In this document: positions 6,642 through 14,959 of the stretch, piece by piece | How positions within the stretch are numbered: the stretch's first letter is position 1 | Layout: every line of letters begins with the position of its first letter | From: a virus | Length of the DNA: 31,183 nucleotides | Direction: 5' to 3' (one strand) | Virus record (IMG/VR): IMGVR_UViG_3300029286_000174 | Location: 1 to 31,183 of that record | Position numbers and translations under genes: made by a program | The notes under the pieces: model-generated | What the model saw: the letters and a program-made list of their open reading frames with translations, nothing else | Told to the model about the DNA's origin: nothing | Database searches by the model: none

Positions 6642-6669
6642 AGCCCTGCCTTGTGCGGGGCTTTTTTTT
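6642..6669 (+). terminator. Terminator of the capsid operon
   Basis: Stem AGCCCTGC / GCGGGGCT (one G-T pair) with a CTTGT loop, then eight T residues. It separates capsid genes from the packaging operon. Confidence 0.9.
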
Positions 6670-6679
6670 CTCATTAAAT

Positions 6680-6871
6680 CACTAAAGAGTACTATGTCCG
6701 CTTCGCTTTGTTTATCCCGGCTTCGCCTTTGTTTTTCATCAATGAAGCACCAGAGAGTACTATGCCCGCTTCGCTTTGTTTATCCCGGCTTCGCCTTTGT
6801 TTTTCATCAATGAAGCACCAGAGAGTACTATGCCCGCTTCGCTTTGTTTATCCCGGCTTCGCCTTTGTTTT
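6680..6871. repeat. 68-bp tandem repeat, about 2.8 copies
   Basis: Units start at 6680, 6748 and 6816. The last two are identical until the third breaks off near 6871; the first differs at a few bases. Each unit contains two related words, CCGCTTCGCTTTG and CGGCTTCGCCTTTG. The open frame running through the repeats on the + strand is an artefact of a period that is not a multiple of three. A recent slippage or recombination product in the gap between two operons. Confidence 0.95.
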
Positions 6872-6922
6872 AAATATTTTATGTCCTTTCGGACATTGCA
6901 TTGTCATTGCATCTTTGATGCA
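6872..6922 (+). promoter_or_regulatory. Promoter/operator region of the packaging operon
   Basis: Contains an ATGTCC-TTTC-GGACAT hairpin (6881-6896) with the word GTCCTTTC that recurs at other operon starts, and a palindrome TGCATC-TTT-GATGCA (6908-6922) touching the start codon. CATCTTTG (6910-6917) is one base off the TAnnTTTG element but would give an almost leaderless mRNA. Exact start of transcription is uncertain. Confidence 0.4.
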
Positions 6923-7869
6923 TGAAAGAAAAAATACCAGAAAAAACAAAGCATACTCCTTTAGTCAGGAAATTTCCAAAATACGGGAGAAACGAACCTT
7001 GCCCTTGTGGCAGTGGCAAAAAGTTTAAACATTGCTGTGAGCTTGCCTACAAGCTCAATCTGGCTAAGAAAATCACACAAATCAGACAAAATCACATGAA
7101 AGAACAAATTATTACTTATCTGCGCACCGATCGTAGTTTTGAATCAGGCGCCAGGCTTTATCACAAACTTGGGCATAACCTTGCCCTTATCAGAAAATTC
7201 AACATTCAGGGAGAAAGCAAATCCAATCTTGAGATGCTTCACTACCAGTTATGGAAGCTCACAGGATTGCCTGAAAAAGAATTTAATGATATCATGATGC
7301 AACCGGTTTCAAAACCAAAACAACCGGAAAACATCCTAAAGCAAATTATTGAAGCTGCTGAAGCTGCTCCATCAACAATTTCAGTTACCGAAGCTGTAAA
7401 ATTTAAGCTCCGGGAAGAGTTTCCATTCCTGGCTGATAAATCCTGTCCGGATGCTTTTAAAATCCTGGTTGCCGACATGATGACGGCTCATGACAATTAC
7501 ATACAGGCTCACGAAGAACTGTTCAATATAACCAACGAACAGGAAGCCTTTGATGCTGCTGATACACTCATCAACAATTACCTGGATAACCAGGCAATCT
7601 GGAAAGAGCTTAATCATTATAAAACTACCGGAGCCATCCTGGGCAAGCATCCTTACTTCCAGGATCAGAACCGCCAGAAGGAGCTGACTGCTAAAAGTGT
7701 TCCAGACCTGATGATCATGCTTCGAAATATCGAACATTCGATCTGGCGGGTTACAAAGAAAATGAAAGACGATCCCAAACCGGAACTTGTTGCCAAGCGA
7801 GAAAAAACAATCCGGGATTATGAACGTGACAAGAAGATCATCAAATCGTTGCTGAATCTTAATGAATAA
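6922..7869 (+). CDS. SEC-C motif protein heading the packaging operon
   Basis: A 315-aa protein with a textbook SEC-C zinc-binding motif near its N-terminus, YGRNEPCPCGSGKKFKHCC (residues 21-39), the Cys-rich module known from the SecA C-terminus. The remaining 275 residues are helical and charged, without recognised catalytic motifs. SEC-C modules tether proteins to partners, and phage proteins carrying them are usually uncharacterised. It is the first gene of a chain of overlapping genes ending with large terminase; its stop overlaps the next start by 8 nt. A role in packaging or host takeover is inference. Confidence 0.8.
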   Translation: MKEKIPEKTKHTPLVRKFPKYGRNEPCPCGSGKKFKHCCELAYKLNLAKKITQIRQNHMKEQIITYLRTDRSFESGARLYHKLGHNLALIRKFNIQGESKSNLEMLHYQLWKLTGLPEKEFNDIMMQPVSKPKQPENILKQIIEAAEAAPSTISVTEAVKFKLREEFPFLADKSCPDAFKILVADMMTAHDNYIQAHEELFNITNEQEAFDAADTLINNYLDNQAIWKELNHYKTTGAILGKHPYFQDQNRQKELTAKSVPDLMIMLRNIEHSIWRVTKKMKDDPKPELVAKREKTIRDYERDKKIIKSLLNLNE

Positions 7870-11432: not shown

Positions 11433-11456
11433 CACCCTGCGTTTACTCAATTTGAT

Positions 11457-11698
11457 GGCAAAGGTACAGCCAGCAAAATATCTATGTAAAGCCCGGACGG
11501 ACAATGCATTTTTATTTTTAGCTGACATTGCCCGACCGCCCGTTGGGTTTTTTCAGATATTTCTTAACGCTGCGCTAAAATATCTGACCTAAAGGCTTGA
11601 CTTAGAATTTTTCTTAGCTGTGGTTTCTGGCCATAAATTTTTTAACTCACCGGCGCGCCAGATGCCACAATAAGCCTCCGTGGGCAGGAGCAATAATT
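11457..11698 (+). ncRNA. Structured cassette leader RNA, copy 1
   Basis: First full copy of the repeated element. It runs from the conserved GGCAAAGGTACAGCC to just before ATG 11699. The large hairpin (P3) pairs 11494-11506 with 11526-11538, with two internal mismatches. The next hairpin (P4) pairs TCAGATATTT with AAATATCTGA. The terminal hairpin reads CTCC-GTGGGCA-GGAG, where other copies have CCGC/GCGG or CCC/GGG. The base of P4 is less regular than in the other copies. No family recognised. Confidence 0.75.
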
Positions 11699-11842
11699 AT
11701 GAAAAAATTTAAAGGTCTTTATGATGCTTTTGTTGAATTTCTTGATGGTCTTTATTTTGAAGGCTACGCTGAACGGCTTAAAGACGAGGATCCTGAATTG
11801 TTTTATTTTGAATGGGAACAATATCAGGGGCTTTTTTCTTAA
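11699..11842 (+). CDS. 47-aa acidic protein behind leader copy 1
   Basis: MKKFKGLYDAFVEFLDGLYF and 27 further residues, ending EQYQGLFS. Very rich in Phe, Tyr, Asp and Glu; no Cys, no signal peptide. The start is fixed by the leader, whose last hairpin ends 9 nt before the ATG as in the other copies, and the frame is closed by a strong terminator 6 nt after the stop. DNA-mimic or anti-defence proteins can have such small acidic compositions, but this is only a compositional remark. Confidence 0.65.
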   Translation: MKKFKGLYDAFVEFLDGLYFEGYAERLKDEDPELFYFEWEQYQGLFS

Positions 11843-11848
11843 GATTTC

Positions 11849-11881
11849 GAGCCACGTCGGGGGACGTGGCTCATTTTTTTT
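11849..11881 (+). terminator. Terminator of cassette 1
   Basis: A perfect 10-bp stem GAGCCACGTC / GACGTGGCTC with a GGGG loop and a long T run. Confidence 0.92.
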
Positions 11882-11901
11882 ATTCGTACGGCATATTTTT
11901 T

Positions 11902-11937
11902 AAAAATCCCGTGAACATCGGGTTCCCGGGATTTTTT
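11902..11937. terminator. Second, two-sided hairpin between cassettes 1 and 2
   Basis: AAAAATCCCG...CGGGATTTTTTT with inner GTGAAC/GGTTC pairing and one mismatch. Having A-run and T-run on opposite sides, it can end transcription from both directions. A near-identical hairpin lies before copy 3. Confidence 0.8.
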
Positions 11938-11970
11938 TAGGAGCCACCCGCACTATTACTTAAATTTTAT

Positions 11971-12208
11971 GACAAAGGTACAGCCAGTAAAATATCGTAA
12001 GTAAAGCCCGATTGGACAATGTTTTTGATTTTTTAGCTGACATTGTCCATTCGCCCGTTGGGTGGCTTCAGAAATATTTTAACGCTGTGCTAAAATTTCT
12101 GACCGCCAGGCTTGACTTAGAATTTTTCTTAGCTGTGATTGGACGTCATAAATTTAATTAACCGGCGAGCCAGATGCCAAAATTAGTCCCAGGGCAGGGC
12201 AAACACAC
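11971..12208 (+). ncRNA. Structured cassette leader RNA, copy 2
   Basis: Second full copy. P3 pairs 12009-12021 (CGATTGGACAATG) with 12041-12053 (CATTGTCCATTCG): the sequence differs from copy 3 but the pairing is kept apart from one T-T. P4 has TCAGAAAT/ATTTCTGA on a GGTGG/CCGCC base. The terminal hairpin is CCC-AGGGCA-GGG. The stem TCTGGC/GCCAGA of the other copies is weakened here (TTGG/CCAG). Confidence 0.78.
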
Positions 12209-12412
12209 ATGACAAAATCAGAATATCAGGATTACATCAGTGACATCATGGAAATGTCGAACAACGGAGCTGACCTTGCTGCAAAGCATTTGGAAATTGT
12301 AGAGATTGTAAGAGTTAAACTGGATGATTGCTCACACAGAGAACATCACACGTTGAAAGACATCCGTGAAGCTCTTAATTCAGGCTTTTACGATAAAGCT
12401 TATTTTGAATAA
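12209..12412 (+). CDS. 67-aa protein behind leader copy 2
   Basis: Starts MTKSEYQDYISDIMEMSNNG; acidic, helical, soluble. Contains a His-rich stretch (CSHREHHTLKDIREAL) but no recognised motif. The start follows the leader with the fixed spacing; a terminator begins within 3 nt of the stop. Not recognised; likely accessory cargo of the array. Confidence 0.7.
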   Translation: MTKSEYQDYISDIMEMSNNGADLAAKHLEIVEIVRVKLDDCSHREHHTLKDIREALNSGFYDKAYFE

Positions 12413-12414
12413 TA

Positions 12415-12439
12415 AAAAAGGGGCGAAAGCCCTTTTTTT
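12415..12439 (+). terminator. Terminator of cassette 2
   Basis: AAAAAAGGGGC-GAAA-GCCCTTTTTTT stem-loop with GAAA tetraloop and T run. Confidence 0.9.
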
Positions 12440-12460
12440 ATGGTCGTAACTGACAAGGTA

Positions 12461-12499
12461 AAAATCCCGTGAACATTGAGTTCACGGGATGTTTTTTTT
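12461..12499. terminator. Second two-sided hairpin between cassettes 2 and 3
   Basis: ATCCCGTGAAC-ATTGA-GTTCACGGGAT, a perfect 11-bp stem flanked by A and T runs. It closely matches the hairpin at 11902, with an intact stem where the latter has a mismatch. Confidence 0.85.
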
Positions 12500-12537
12500 G
12501 TGGCTCGCGTACTAACTCTACTGTTACTTAAATTTTC

Positions 12538-12768
12538 GGCAAAGGTACAGCCAGCCAAATATCTAAGTAAAGCCCGACCGGACAATGTTTTTAATTTTTT
12601 AGCTGACATTGTCCGGTCGCCCGTTGGGTGGCTTCAGAAATTTTTGAGGAAATTTCTGACCGCCAGGCTTGACTTAGAATTTGTCTTAGCTGTGGTTTCT
12701 GGCCATAAAATTTAACTAACCGGCGAGCCAGAGGCCAAAAATAGTCCGCAGGGCAGCGGCATCATTCT
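12538..12768 (+). ncRNA. Structured cassette leader RNA, copy 3 (reference fold)
   Basis: Pairings read in this copy, in order. P1: TACAGC 12546-12551 with GCTGTG 12689-12694. P2: CTAAGTAAAGCC 12563-12574 with GGCTTGACTTAG 12666-12677, one A-G mismatch. P3: 12575-12588 with 12606-12619, 14 bp perfect. Mini-stem CCC-GTT-GGG 12620-12628, which competes with the P4 base GGTGG/CCGCC (12627-12631, 12660-12664). P4: TCAGAAATTT/AAATTTCTGA (12634-12643, 12650-12659). P5: TCTGGC 12698-12703 with GCCAGA 12727-12732. P6: CCGC/GCGG (12746-12749, 12756-12759). GCC 12734-12736 can pair with GGC in the P6 loop as a pseudoknot. Conserved G-U pairs in P1 and P4 favour the plus strand as the RNA. No known RNA family recognised. 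Confidence 0.8.
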
Positions 12769-12969
12769 ATGTTAAAATCGCGCTCACTGAAAACTCAGTG
12801 TTATGTTATTCCCGGGAAACGAGGAAAACGGACTAAGTTTTTTCCTCAATTAACCCTCAGGGGCCGCTGGCTCGAAGAGGCCGGTTTCCCACCTGATTAC
12901 TTTGTTGAAGTTCATGTTCAGGATGGCAGACTGATCATTGAACCTGTTGGTGTTCCCTGTACCGCATGA
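12769..12969 (+). CDS. SymE-like toxin domain protein
   Basis: A 66-aa protein whose C-terminal half, PQLTLRGRWLEEAGF then FVEVHVQDGRLIIEPV, matches the SymE pattern P.i.L.GkWLe.aGF..g..v.V.v..g.lvi. SymE toxins have an AbrB-like fold and in E. coli are induced by SOS and held down by the antisense RNA SymR. The basic N-terminus (SRSLKTQCYVIPGKRGKRTK) also fits. Length is normal. It starts at the end of leader copy 3 and overlaps the next gene by ATGA. In phages, SymE-like proteins might be cargo toxins or DNA/RNA-binding regulators; toxicity here is inferred from the family only. Confidence 0.72.
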   Translation: MLKSRSLKTQCYVIPGKRGKRTKFFPQLTLRGRWLEEAGFPPDYFVEVHVQDGRLIIEPVGVPCTA

Positions 12970-13160
12970 ACCGGCCTCCCTATCAAGGGGAACCCAGGCT
13001 GACAAAAACCCGCTATCCGATAATCTGCCACTGTGGTGCGCGGGTAAAGGCCGGAGATTTCATAATCCATTTTCCGATTTCACAAAATGCCAAGTGCTAT
13101 AAGTGCGGCAAATGGGATTATGAATCGGTTTTCCGGAAAAAACTTTCACTTCCTACTTAA
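12966..13160 (+). CDS. Zinc-ribbon protein coupled to the SymE-like gene
   Basis: A 64-aa basic protein with four cysteines as CHC (21-23) and CYKC (44-47), a likely zinc ribbon. Overlaps the stop of the SymE-like gene by 4 nt (ATGA), so it should be translated from the same mRNA. It could be an antidote, a partner or an unrelated small protein. The stop is followed immediately by the 3'-only leader copy without a terminator in between, so cassettes 3 and 4 may share a transcript. Confidence 0.68.
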   Translation: MNRPPYQGEPRLTKTRYPIICHCGARVKAGDFIIHFPISQNAKCYKCGKWDYESVFRKKLSLPT

Positions 13161-13217
13161 TTTTTAAACCGGCGTGCCAGATGCCAACATAAGTCCGCAG
13201 GGCAGCGGCATTTTATT
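13161..13217 (+). ncRNA. 3' domain-only copy of the cassette leader, copy 4
   Basis: Only the terminal part is present: ACCGGCGTGCCAGATGCC (from 13168), the P6 hairpin CCGC-AGGGCA-GCGG (13195-13208) and the spacer to ATG 13218. The sequence matches copies 3 and 5 closely. P1-P4 and the 5' strand of P5 are absent; the preceding bases are coding. The 3' domain is therefore a module that can exist alone. Confidence 0.75.
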
Positions 13218-13259
13218 ATGTTTCAAGAATCAGGGGCCTCCGGGCCTCTTTTTTTATAA
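13218..13259 (+). other. 13-codon open frame containing a terminator, empty cassette
   Basis: ATG after leader copy 4 opens MFQESGASGPLFL and stops. The hairpin AGGGGCC-TCCG-GGCCTCT (13232-13249) with T run sits inside it. Either a degenerate cassette that lost its gene, or a leader-peptide attenuator. The terminator itself is convincing; translation of the short frame is not shown. Confidence 0.5.
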
Positions 13260-13303
13260 TTAGTTATAAAGCTAATATTTAACATCGTTTAACAAAATAA
13301 AGC

Positions 13304-13333
13304 TTGCATATATTAGTTTTATGACTAATTTTA
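13304..13333 (+). promoter_or_regulatory. Promoter of the two-gene unit 13,378-14,209
   Basis: TTG (13304-13306), exactly 19 nt, then TAATTTTA (13326-13333), one base from TAnnTTTG. An inverted repeat ATTAGT-tttatg-ACTAAT (13312-13329) overlaps the spacer and -7 element, an operator-like position. Confidence 0.6.
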
Positions 13334-13377
13334 CAATGTATTTAAAACGAATAATTAACTAATAAAAATTACGAATT

Positions 13378-13680
13378 ATGAAAACTTTAATCGAAACAAC
13401 AACAGGCACAATTTCAAGTCAAATGATTTTAGACCACTGCGGCGACTATGCAGGTAAATTTCAAGACACTGCTTTTGACTTACTTTCAACAGTATGTAAA
13501 TTACCAGAATTTGAAGACAATCAGTGGTGCGACATCATGTTTGACCATGATGGAGATGTTTATGCGATCTGGGCTGAAGATGCTTTGACTTGCTCAAATG
13601 CAGATGCAAAATATATTCAGCTTGATCGCGAAGATTGCGAGGCAGCGTTTGACGGTATGAAAGAAAAAATGGAAAACTAA
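13378..13680 (+). CDS. 100-aa acidic protein of unknown function
   Basis: Starts MKTLIETTTGTISSQMILDHCGDYAG. Strongly acidic, with FDHDGDVYAIWAEDAL in the middle and four cysteines scattered without a metal-binding pattern. No signal peptide. Unlike its neighbours it does not follow a cassette leader but an AT-rich promoter region with an operator-like inverted repeat. Not recognised. Confidence 0.72.
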   Translation: MKTLIETTTGTISSQMILDHCGDYAGKFQDTAFDLLSTVCKLPEFEDNQWCDIMFDHDGDVYAIWAEDALTCSNADAKYIQLDREDCEAAFDGMKEKMEN

Positions 13681-13717
13681 ATTTAACTGCTGCGCTATCG
13701 GCAATACGGGCAATTTT

Positions 13718-14209
13718 ATGAAAGACGAAGCAATAAACATTTTAGATCAAATCTCAAACCTCATAACTTCATATCAGTATTATGAGGAAGCAGAAGAGCA
13801 GGCAGGGGAAAGTATCCAGGAAGATGTTCATGAGTATTACAGAATACTGAATTTTGCTTATGATTTACTAACCAGGACAGCATTAATCAGTTCGATAAAG
13901 GTGAAAACACCTGAAGAGATGAAAGAACCTGGCTTTGAGGAAGAATATATTCAAAGTTATGGTATTGCAGCCGATGAGTTTGCTGATTTTTCGTTTGCTC
14001 TTGCAACCCAAAAGGGCGAAATTTCGCTTCGCAGATTGCTGCGAACGATGATTAACCGCGCCGGTTTTGGTGATAACCCAATTACAATGAAAGATGTTTG
14101 CACGCAAACTCATCAGGGTTATCCGAATATGAGCAGGTACCTTTCCGGAAAACAGTCGCTATCGAGCGATAATTATGAGAAAGCTTTGAATTTTGTTTTA
14201 AAAAAATAG
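13718..14209 (+). CDS. HTH-containing putative regulator
   Basis: A 163-aa acidic, helical protein. The C-terminal 45 residues (ITMKDVCTQTHQGYPNMSRYLSGKQSLSSDNYEKALNFVLKK) have the Cro/C1-type helix-turn-helix layout. The N-terminal 115 residues are helical and may dimerise. It lies 37 bp after the 100-aa gene under the same promoter, and a terminator follows 22 bp later. With the inverted repeat over the promoter, an autoregulatory unit is plausible but unproven. Confidence 0.68.
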   Translation: MKDEAINILDQISNLITSYQYYEEAEEQAGESIQEDVHEYYRILNFAYDLLTRTALISSIKVKTPEEMKEPGFEEEYIQSYGIAADEFADFSFALATQKGEISLRRLLRTMINRAGFGDNPITMKDVCTQTHQGYPNMSRYLSGKQSLSSDNYEKALNFVLKK

Positions 14210-14230
14210 CTTTTATCTATTTTTATTTAA

Positions 14231-14260
14231 AGCCTCTGAGTTACTCAGGGGCTTTTTTTT
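14231..14260 (+). terminator. Terminator after the HTH gene
   Basis: AGCCTCTGAG-TTA-CTCAGGGGCT, 10 bp with one T-G pair, followed by a T run. It lies 40 bp before leader copy 5, in the place that a two-sided hairpin takes before copies 2 and 3. Confidence 0.92.
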
Positions 14261-14300
14261 TATCTCACCCGACACTGAGAGATGATCACTTAAATTGGCT

Positions 14301-14545
14301 GGCAAAGGTACAGCCAGTCAAATATCATAAGTAAAGCCCGGACGGCCAATGCCTTTTCAATTTTTTAGCTGAGCATTGGCCGTCCGCCCGTTGGGTGGCT
14401 TCACGCTTTAAGGCGTGACCGCCAGGCTTGACTTAGAATTTGCCTTAGCTGTGATTTCTGGCCATCAATTTAAATGATTCATTTTTCAAAATTAAACTGG
14501 CGTGCCAGATGCTAAAAAAAGTCCGCAGGGCAGCGGCAAATAATT
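14301..14545 (+). ncRNA. Structured cassette leader RNA, copy 5
   Basis: Fourth full copy. P3 pairs 14339-14352 with 14373-14386, perfect 14 bp in a sequence different from copies 1-3. P4 is shortened to TCACGC/GCGTGA on the same GGTGG/CCGCC base, a full replacement of the stem. P5 TCTGGC/GCCAGA encloses a longer AT-rich loop. P6 is CCGC/GCGG. The pseudoknot-side triplet is GCT instead of GCC, which weakens that pairing here. Confidence 0.8.
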
Positions 14546-14959
14546 ATGACAACCGGATCAGCAAATGCAACTCCGAAAAATGGTTCAGCATCGAAAGCTG
14601 ACAGTACTCAACCAAAAGTTGAGAACGTTCAAAATGCAACGGCTCCTGCCGAAGTGAAAATTCCTAAACCGGAAGCTCCGGTAATAAAGAATTTTACTTT
14701 GCATGAGATTGAGCAAAAGACCGAGTTCCTGAACACGCTTTTTACGAAAAGGATGCGGCTTCACGAAGCTAAACTGAAGCTGGAAAAGTTCAGGATCGGA
14801 TCGGACGATTCGCTTACGGTTCGTTTTTCGGACAATGACGGGAATTCATTTACCACCGCAAACAAGGAGCCTATTGAGAAAATGCTCAGGATGGTGAAGG
14901 ATGGAATTTCGGTTTCGCTGATGGAAGTTGAAGCACATATCAAATCGATATTTGAGTAA
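14546..14959 (+). CDS. 137-aa protein with disordered N-terminus behind leader copy 5
   Basis: Residues 1-45 are Ser/Ala/Thr/Pro/Lys-rich and probably disordered. The C-terminal 90 residues form a compact alpha/beta unit (FTLHEIEQKTEFLNTLFTKRMRLHEAKLKLEKFRIGSDDSLTVRFSD, then EKMLRMVKDGISVSLMEVEAHIKSIFE). I recall similar small proteins in other Bacteroidetes phages but not a function. Start set by the leader; a perfect terminator follows 16 nt after the stop, closing the array. Confidence 0.72.
   Translation: MTTGSANATPKNGSASKADSTQPKVENVQNATAPAEVKIPKPEAPVIKNFTLHEIEQKTEFLNTLFTKRMRLHEAKLKLEKFRIGSDDSLTVRFSDNDGNSFTTANKEPIEKMLRMVKDGISVSLMEVEAHIKSIFE

Follow-up and report, generated by a model that had tools for sequence, protein, structure and literature searches.

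A two-module element before small accessory genes of Bacteroidota phages and mobilizable elements: an inverted repeat favoring template-strand folding, joined to a 45-nucleotide RNA tail

The window analyzed here is the whole 31,183-nucleotide (nt) stretch of the viral record IMGVR_UViG_3300029286_000174 (IMG/VR), and the subject is an element repeated in it ahead of small genes. Four full copies and one copy of the 3' part only are each followed directly by an ATG (11699, 12209, 12769, 13218 and 14546). BLAST of copy 1 against the window recovers all five copies (E 3e-127 to 1e-5), in agreement with the repeat families returned by a repeat finder, and the repetition described in an earlier note on this DNA is thus borne out. 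That note had taken the element for one large structured RNA leader, a view that finds no support in that form: the 3' 45 nt form an RNA element that also stands alone in operons, and the upstream ~200 base pairs (bp) favor folding of the template strand. The element consists of two previously undescribed modules, an upstream DNA inverted repeat and a 3' RNA tail.

The features of the array are listed below. R2 is the tail model used for the window coordinates and E-values, and the terminator-like hairpins given with a strand were called from sequence. Lengths of open reading frames (ORFs) are in amino acids (aa).

11440..11646, + strand: inverted repeat (upstream module) of copy 1, variant A, which folds over its whole length (RNA sense -53.3, antisense -63.5; DNA top -32.2, bottom -34.7 kcal/mol)
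11648..11694, + strand: tail RNA element of copy 1 (R2, E 1.3e-14), whose stem CUCC/GGAG is a compensatory variant
11699..11842, + strand: ORF of 47 aa, no family; a relative lies behind the tail copy of locus L127 (2435-2578, by eye)
11849..11881, + strand: terminator-like hairpin closing cassette 1
11901..11938 and 12459-12496: bidirectional terminator-like hairpin TAAAAATCCCGTGAACAT..GTTC.CGGGATTTTTTT, closing cassettes 1 and 2 (repeat families D12 and I1)
11953..12160, + strand: inverted repeat of copy 2 (DNA top -37.0, bottom -38.2 kcal/mol)
12160..12203, + strand: tail RNA element of copy 2, with a 3+1 bp stem CCC/GGG (R2, E 9.7e-17)
12209..12412, + strand: ORF of 67 aa, no family
12419..12439, + strand: terminator-like hairpin closing cassette 2
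12522..12720, + strand: inverted repeat of copy 3 (DNA top -50.2, bottom -51.5 kcal/mol)
12718..12763, + strand: tail RNA element of copy 3 (R2, E 3.8e-18)
12769..12969, + strand: ORF of 66 aa, SymE-like (PF08845, E 6e-12, above the Pfam cut-off)
12966..13160, + strand: ORF of 64 aa, CxxC zinc-finger-like; similar small proteins follow tails in 15 other loci (by eye)
13167..13212, + strand: tail RNA element alone, without inverted repeat, within the operon and 6 nt past the preceding ORF (R2, E 9e-21)
13218..13259, + strand: 13-codon remnant and terminator; the homologous tail in phage L007 precedes ArdC (ArdcN PF08401 and MPTase-PolyVal PF18818)
14231..14261, + strand: terminator-like hairpin before copy 5
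14283..14479, + strand: inverted repeat of copy 5, whose outer arms GATCACTTAAATTG/CAATTTAAATGATT differ from copy 3 by compensatory changes (DNA top -51.9, bottom -54.6 kcal/mol)
14495..14540, + strand: tail RNA element of copy 5, ~15 nt past the end of the inverted repeat (R2, E 1.5e-19)
14546..14959, + strand: ORF of 137 aa, coiled-coil-like, of the family most common behind the tail (39/118 proteins)

The tail is composed of two small hairpins within 45 nt, the last of which ends 8-10 nt 5' of the ATG. That distance had been given earlier for the entire element and is correct for this hairpin, although the intervals then reported run to the base before the ATG; their starts were also set ~15 nt too late, the inverted repeat beginning at 11440, 11953, 12522 and 14283. 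The copy regarded as partial does exist, yet it is a complete 3' module and not a fragment.

The tail follows the pattern RGY-loop-RCY, then (G/A)-bulge-NNNN-ARGGCA-N'N'N'N'-(C/U). The first pattern tried on genome contigs gave no match; later scans of viral and genome contigs yielded 134 tail copies, essentially all in Bacteroidota, and an ATG-free model added ~75 more, nearly all with an ATG at the same spacing. The ATG lies 4-6 nt past the model end in nearly all copies; the choice of start codons favored ATG, so that "ATG only" is slightly biased, though the fixed spacing is seen in almost all of them. The NNNN/N'N'N'N' stem occurs in ~20 different complementary versions; the outer pair of this ARGGCA hairpin is G-C in 69 cases and A-U in 36, with 5 exceptions. 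Pairing is kept in 98.3% of the cells of a 54-sequence alignment, where doubly changed, compensatory cells number 83 versus 26 in shuffles and at most 12 in slid controls. The ~75 extra copies revealed the second hairpin, P1 (RGY/RCY), in GGC/GCC, AGC/GCU, GGU/ACC and NGG/CCN' variants; its loop sometimes holds an additional inserted hairpin (e.g., L079:6567-6635 and L103:2994-3063). A variant with a P1 loop shorter by 3 nt, NGG-AGAGCCAG-CCN', occurs at L044:6874, L110:4906, L134:4690 and other sites.

The folded molecule of the tail is mRNA, since G.U wobbles outnumber A.C in sense letters (23 vs 5 in 142 distinct copies) and, ties aside, the sense strand gives the better fold in 87 of 114 copies. 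A loop-loop contact GCC x GGC between the two hairpins is probable on the structural model, and stays unproven because it never varies in the 54-row alignment. A pseudoknot UGCC x GGCA was dropped in favor of P1 with GCC x GGC, which fits better, since the element persists in copies that have GCCAGTTGCC, GCCAGAAGCC or additional hairpins. A pairing of UUUCUGGCC with the tail GCCAG, present in minimum-free-energy folds, is not conserved and was rejected. Among riboswitch traits, the tail displays only an aptamer-like density of conserved bases. The genome tallies below rest on an earlier model, R1, which had the 3' strand of P2 one column off and therefore worked mostly as a sequence profile.

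The separation of the two modules emerges from a comparison of about 200 relatives. In 57 of 195 cases the tail starts less than 80 nt after an ORF stop, and in none of these is the 5' box of the repeat found upstream; this box is restricted to tail copies with long upstream gaps. Conversely, a tail and ATG follow the 5' arm of the repeat in 49 of 54 distinct cases, at least two of the five exceptions being degenerate tails which the test missed. The ~200-bp inverted repeat, with its three-way junction, thus sits 5' of the first gene of a unit. Since intra-operon tails lack the box, 5' arms nearly always have a tail and ATG, and ~15 nt separate the modules in copy 5 of the window, tails belong to genes and repeats to transcription units.

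The arms of the repeat pair over their full length, and the TACTCAAATT box at its 5' edge pairs with AAATTT just 5' of the tail; pairing is 90-100% Watson-Crick in most columns, this box included. Copies 3 and 5 fold much better than dinucleotide shuffles (z -7.0 and -5.1), and the consensus fold of the four full copies comprises 69 pairs, 8 of them changed on both sides. With RNA parameters, the antisense strand is more stable in 45 of 57 non-redundant copies, by a mean of 5.3 kcal/mol or 3.2 kcal/mol after correction for composition (p 3e-5); the copies are mutually related, and the p-values are upper limits of the evidence. With DNA parameters, the bottom strand is more stable in 48 of the 57, among them all four of the window. 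Mismatches within Watson-Crick helices, in sense letters, are A.C 30 versus G.T 12 overall and A.C 17 versus G.T 2 in the fast-evolving inner hairpins (G.T 17 : 2 on the bottom strand), a bias opposite to that of the tail (Fisher 5e-5 overall, 1e-6 for the inner hairpins); the aligned arms give A.C 33 versus G.T 17. The junction carries a mini-hairpin with the bottom-strand sequence NNC-GAA-GNN, seen 32 times versus 0.7 expected and with seven different stems; this C-GAA-G triloop belongs to variant B, while variant A of the window has AAC on the bottom strand. Triloops of the type d(C-GNA-G) form exceptionally stable DNA hairpins (PMC4686876). Given this template-strand folding signature, the upstream ~200 bp are more likely an element acting as DNA than as RNA.

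The relatives of the window extend this picture to other genes and carriers. An exact 17-mer from the 5' end of the element finds the same phage once more (L006), together with a sister phage, L007, in which the order of the four full copies and the single tail is unchanged; a further candidate, L008, is a chance coding match and not a relative, and the phage nucleotide collection gave no match to the element. Behind the tail-only copy of L007 stands an intact ArdC gene; the window has lost this gene and retains the ATG and a terminator. The 5-kb block concerned (L007:3044-8170, missing from the window at 13218-13260) codes for ArdC, a 69-aa zinc-finger-like protein, an SNF2-like helicase, a PAPS-reductase/DndC-like protein, and ParB-like and XRE proteins, the last two named from reading the sequence. 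Cassette exchange by recombination in the leaders had been suggested for this array, but this block, from ArdC to XRE, is the sole clear gene difference between the two close phages and breaks at the ATG and terminator, outside the leader. Phage L013 is less closely related (terminase 72% identical) and carries one copy before a RadC-like gene, with AAGGUU/AAUCUU in its rod helix in place of AAGCC/GGCUU. Behind this single copy (L013:7009-14944) lie a DUF262/Orf5-like gene and a type IIG restriction-methylation gene, and L013 also retains, at 12652-12713, a remnant of the repeat reduced to its 5' arm, followed by a 670-aa gene that belongs to no known defense family.

The placement before unrelated small genes, which had been recognized in the window, recurs in other phages, where homologues of the element again lie upstream of diverse small ORFs. 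The 118 proteins behind tails include the coiled-coil family (39), RadC (15), the small zinc-finger family (15), ArdC (11), DUF6573 (9), SymE-like proteins (3) and others. AbiEi/AbiEii-like toxin-antitoxin pairs, named by eye, adjoin arrays in L169, L079 and L110, loci of Prolixibacteraceae genomes. Elsewhere in the window, at 6664-6871, three tandem 68-nt copies, 89% identical (AGAGTACTATGCCCGCTTCGCTTTGTTTATCCCGGCTTCGCCTTTG), lie directly 5' of the gene at 6922-7869.

In phage carriers (the window, L173, L175 and others) the array is located between the large terminase and portal genes, mostly in the direction of the terminase; in L072/L174, which are one genome, it is reversed. The designation as a phage accessory locus is therefore right for phages but too narrow, since mobilizable or conjugative elements make up the rest of the carriers. 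The copies in L170/L181 lie ahead of genes for a CHC2 primase, a MobC/NikA-like protein and a YWFCY coupling protein of the type IV secretion system, and in all five mobilizable-element loci (L095, L110, L120, L170 and L183) every copy points toward the primase/MobC genes. Should the origin of transfer (oriT) be located 5' of mobC, as it is in related systems, the template strand, on which the repeat folds, would be the one transferred. By the R1 tally, the tail is present in 46 of 100 genomes of the Mangrovibacterium family (Prolixibacteraceae), with up to 16 copies, and in none of 117 others in an even sample of the phylum (p 2e-19).

The closest parallels are promoters formed by folded DNA. 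Frpo/ssi promoters fold from a single strand and use the T-strand (transferred strand) as template for anti-restriction-type genes (Masai & Arai 1997; Samuel et al. 2024, PMC11541004). Compared by description, the present element resembles them in having an inverted repeat which folds on the template strand before anti-restriction or anti-defense genes, with several per element, and the use of the entering strand as template fits the direction seen in the five mobilizable loci. It differs in that no -35/-10 (TTGACA/TATAAT) was found in the stem, and in its second RNA module after every copy, its Bacteroidota hosts and its presence in double-stranded DNA (dsDNA) phages too. In the early promoters of phage N4, a C-GNA-G triloop lets template-strand hairpins extrude at natural supercoiling (PMC4496689). 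A template-strand hairpin with a d(C-GNA-G) triloop in dsDNA phage genomes is thus shared, extrusion in N4 resulting from gyrase supercoiling; yet the N4 hairpin has 5-7 bp, a 3-nt loop and a distance of ~11 nt from the start site, compared to a ~200-bp repeat with the triloop at its junction here, and variant A of the window is without a GNA loop. By analogy, the best reading is that the element functions in the manner of Frpo or N4 promoters; membership in either class is not claimed, since no canonical promoter boxes were found.

Known RNA families offer less. The earlier note recognized none, and none of the Rfam 15 covariance models, radC and STAXI included, scores above its gathering cut-off in the window or in 12 related loci; a lax E-value scan of the region returned chance hits only. 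The radC RNA (RF01754) and STAXI (RF01728) are likewise conserved RNA structures 5' of genes of mobile elements, radC and antirestriction genes among them (Weinberg 2010, PMC2864571), but they have other taxa and another structure. An open-literature search with relevant terms returned no description of the element, the GUCCY-hairpin being left uncompared (Weinberg 2010; Bacteroidetes/Proteobacteria, not in Rfam; consensus not read); kinship of the tail with it is thinkable from its name and phylum, the 5' side of the tail being mostly GUCC. Operators of the MS2/PP7 type combine a short stem, a 5' bulge and a fixed hexaloop close to a start codon. The tail shares this layout, yet differs in sequence, belongs to a two-hairpin unit and is repeated before many genes. 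Integron attC sites share bottom-strand folding, but the R boxes RYYYAAC / GTTRRRY are not at the ends, which read GTTA..TAAC, and attC lies at the 3' end of a cassette ORF, unlike the element, which is on the 5' side of genes. Group II/HEARO-type and small ribozymes were also set aside, with no matching motifs and a negative Rfam result.

With both structures, the strand on which each folds, and their position, coupling and distribution established, the element is tentatively read as a template-strand DNA-hairpin promoter feeding mRNAs with a structured, translation-controlling 5' end; this is a possibility we favor without regarding it as probable. We infer promoter activity, a start site, a trigger and an action of the tail on translation as follows. 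The bottom strand, template of the downstream gene, would form a long hairpin containing a three-way junction, either when single during conjugative transfer or replication, or when negative supercoiling extrudes it. The basal duplex of this hairpin would be the promoter, firing toward the gene, and the mRNA would start at or near the repeat base with the tail as its 5' end. There, the tail may cover the ribosome-binding region and set the translation of that gene, either as an operator bound by a trans-acting factor or ligand, or by standing in for a Shine-Dalgarno sequence; later genes of the operon would have their own tail and no inverted repeat. The outcome may be a common switch for accessory and anti-restriction genes soon after entry or activation of the element, and co-regulation of many accessory genes, as earlier proposed, is the natural reading of a shared element. 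Judging from the cargo (ArdC, RadC, SymE-like proteins and restriction neighbors) and the shared carriers, the genes seem to be needed when the element enters or becomes active, and ArdC is required in the recipient cell (PMC7213743). A hairpin promoter with a structured 5' untranslated region is the best reading because cargo and carriers fit entry genes, and Frpo/ssi promoters serve exactly such genes. Still more tentatively, a family of DNA-hairpin promoters may be common to Bacteroidota dsDNA phages and conjugative elements, each tied to a 45-nt RNA translation element, whereby strand exposure or supercoiling on entry would switch on an anti-restriction set at both transcription and translation.

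Several points weigh against this reading. No canonical -35/-10 or Bacteroidota -33/-7 promoter could be assigned at the repeat base, and no TTGACA/TATAAT stands at fixed spacing by inspection, though a Bacteroidota-type promoter could differ. The carriers of the window group are dsDNA phages, which do not enter single-stranded and have no T-strand, and the position of oriT in the mobilizable carriers is not fixed. No N4-type virion RNA polymerase was noticed, without a systematic search, and the window has no very large unexplained ORF. Copy 3 folds better as sense than as antisense with RNA parameters, the window's own variant is missing the GNA triloop (bottom AAC), some conserved sense A.G mismatches in the rod would make poor pairs on the bottom strand, and the relatedness of the 57 copies renders the p-values optimistic.

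Such points leave some room for a single long sense RNA leader, transcribed from a promoter 5' of the repeat, in which a rod-and-junction domain of ~200 nt together with the tail senses a signal or blocks termination. The sense folds are very stable, the copies lie 20-40 nt past terminators, the 5'-edge box TTACTCAAATTT resembles a -7 element and the coupling of repeat and tail is almost constant; nonetheless, the asymmetry of wobbles and mismatches and the energies favor the opposite strand, sense G.U pairs are hardly seen, the box is itself paired within the repeat and the modules are spaced apart in copy 5, which makes this account unlikely. It is rather improbable that the repeat is some other single-strand or cruciform DNA site, such as a single-strand origin or primer, or a landing site for a recombinase or protein, with a separate tail adjacent by chance. 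Such sites, too, are marked by bottom-strand folding, conserved arms with variable hairpins would suit them, and GNA triloops stabilize single-stranded DNA hairpins (PMC4686876), but the fixed orientation and the immediate tail/ATG coupling in 49/54 cases point to gene expression, and there are several copies per element.

A structured antisense RNA from the bottom strand of the repeat, controlling the neighboring gene, would carry the bottom-strand wobble signature just as well as DNA, and a hairpin which is terminator-like on the bottom strand too lies 5' of copies 2 and 3. Copies 1 and 5 are without such terminators, no bottom-strand promoter was seen outside the repeat and the preference for a GNA triloop is a property of DNA, so that this origin is quite improbable. 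Strongly disfavored, and close to negligible, is the view of the copies as insertions resembling miniature inverted-repeat transposable elements, or as recombination debris, with no regulatory role: they are indeed a multicopy inverted repeat in mobile DNA, yet show constant ATG distance, constant orientation and compensatory evolution.

The template-strand hairpin promoter with its translational tail, if confirmed in its upstream part, would join N4-type and Frpo-type transcription in one element of phages and plasmids. The tail itself represents a new, well-delimited RNA family, and what it does to translation is directly testable, in a bacterial group which largely does without Shine-Dalgarno pairing. 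Taken together, R2 and the inverted repeat provide a compact signature for an early/accessory regulon of phages and conjugative elements in these poorly studied bacteria, and this signature yields a list of small unknown genes which probably counter host defenses.

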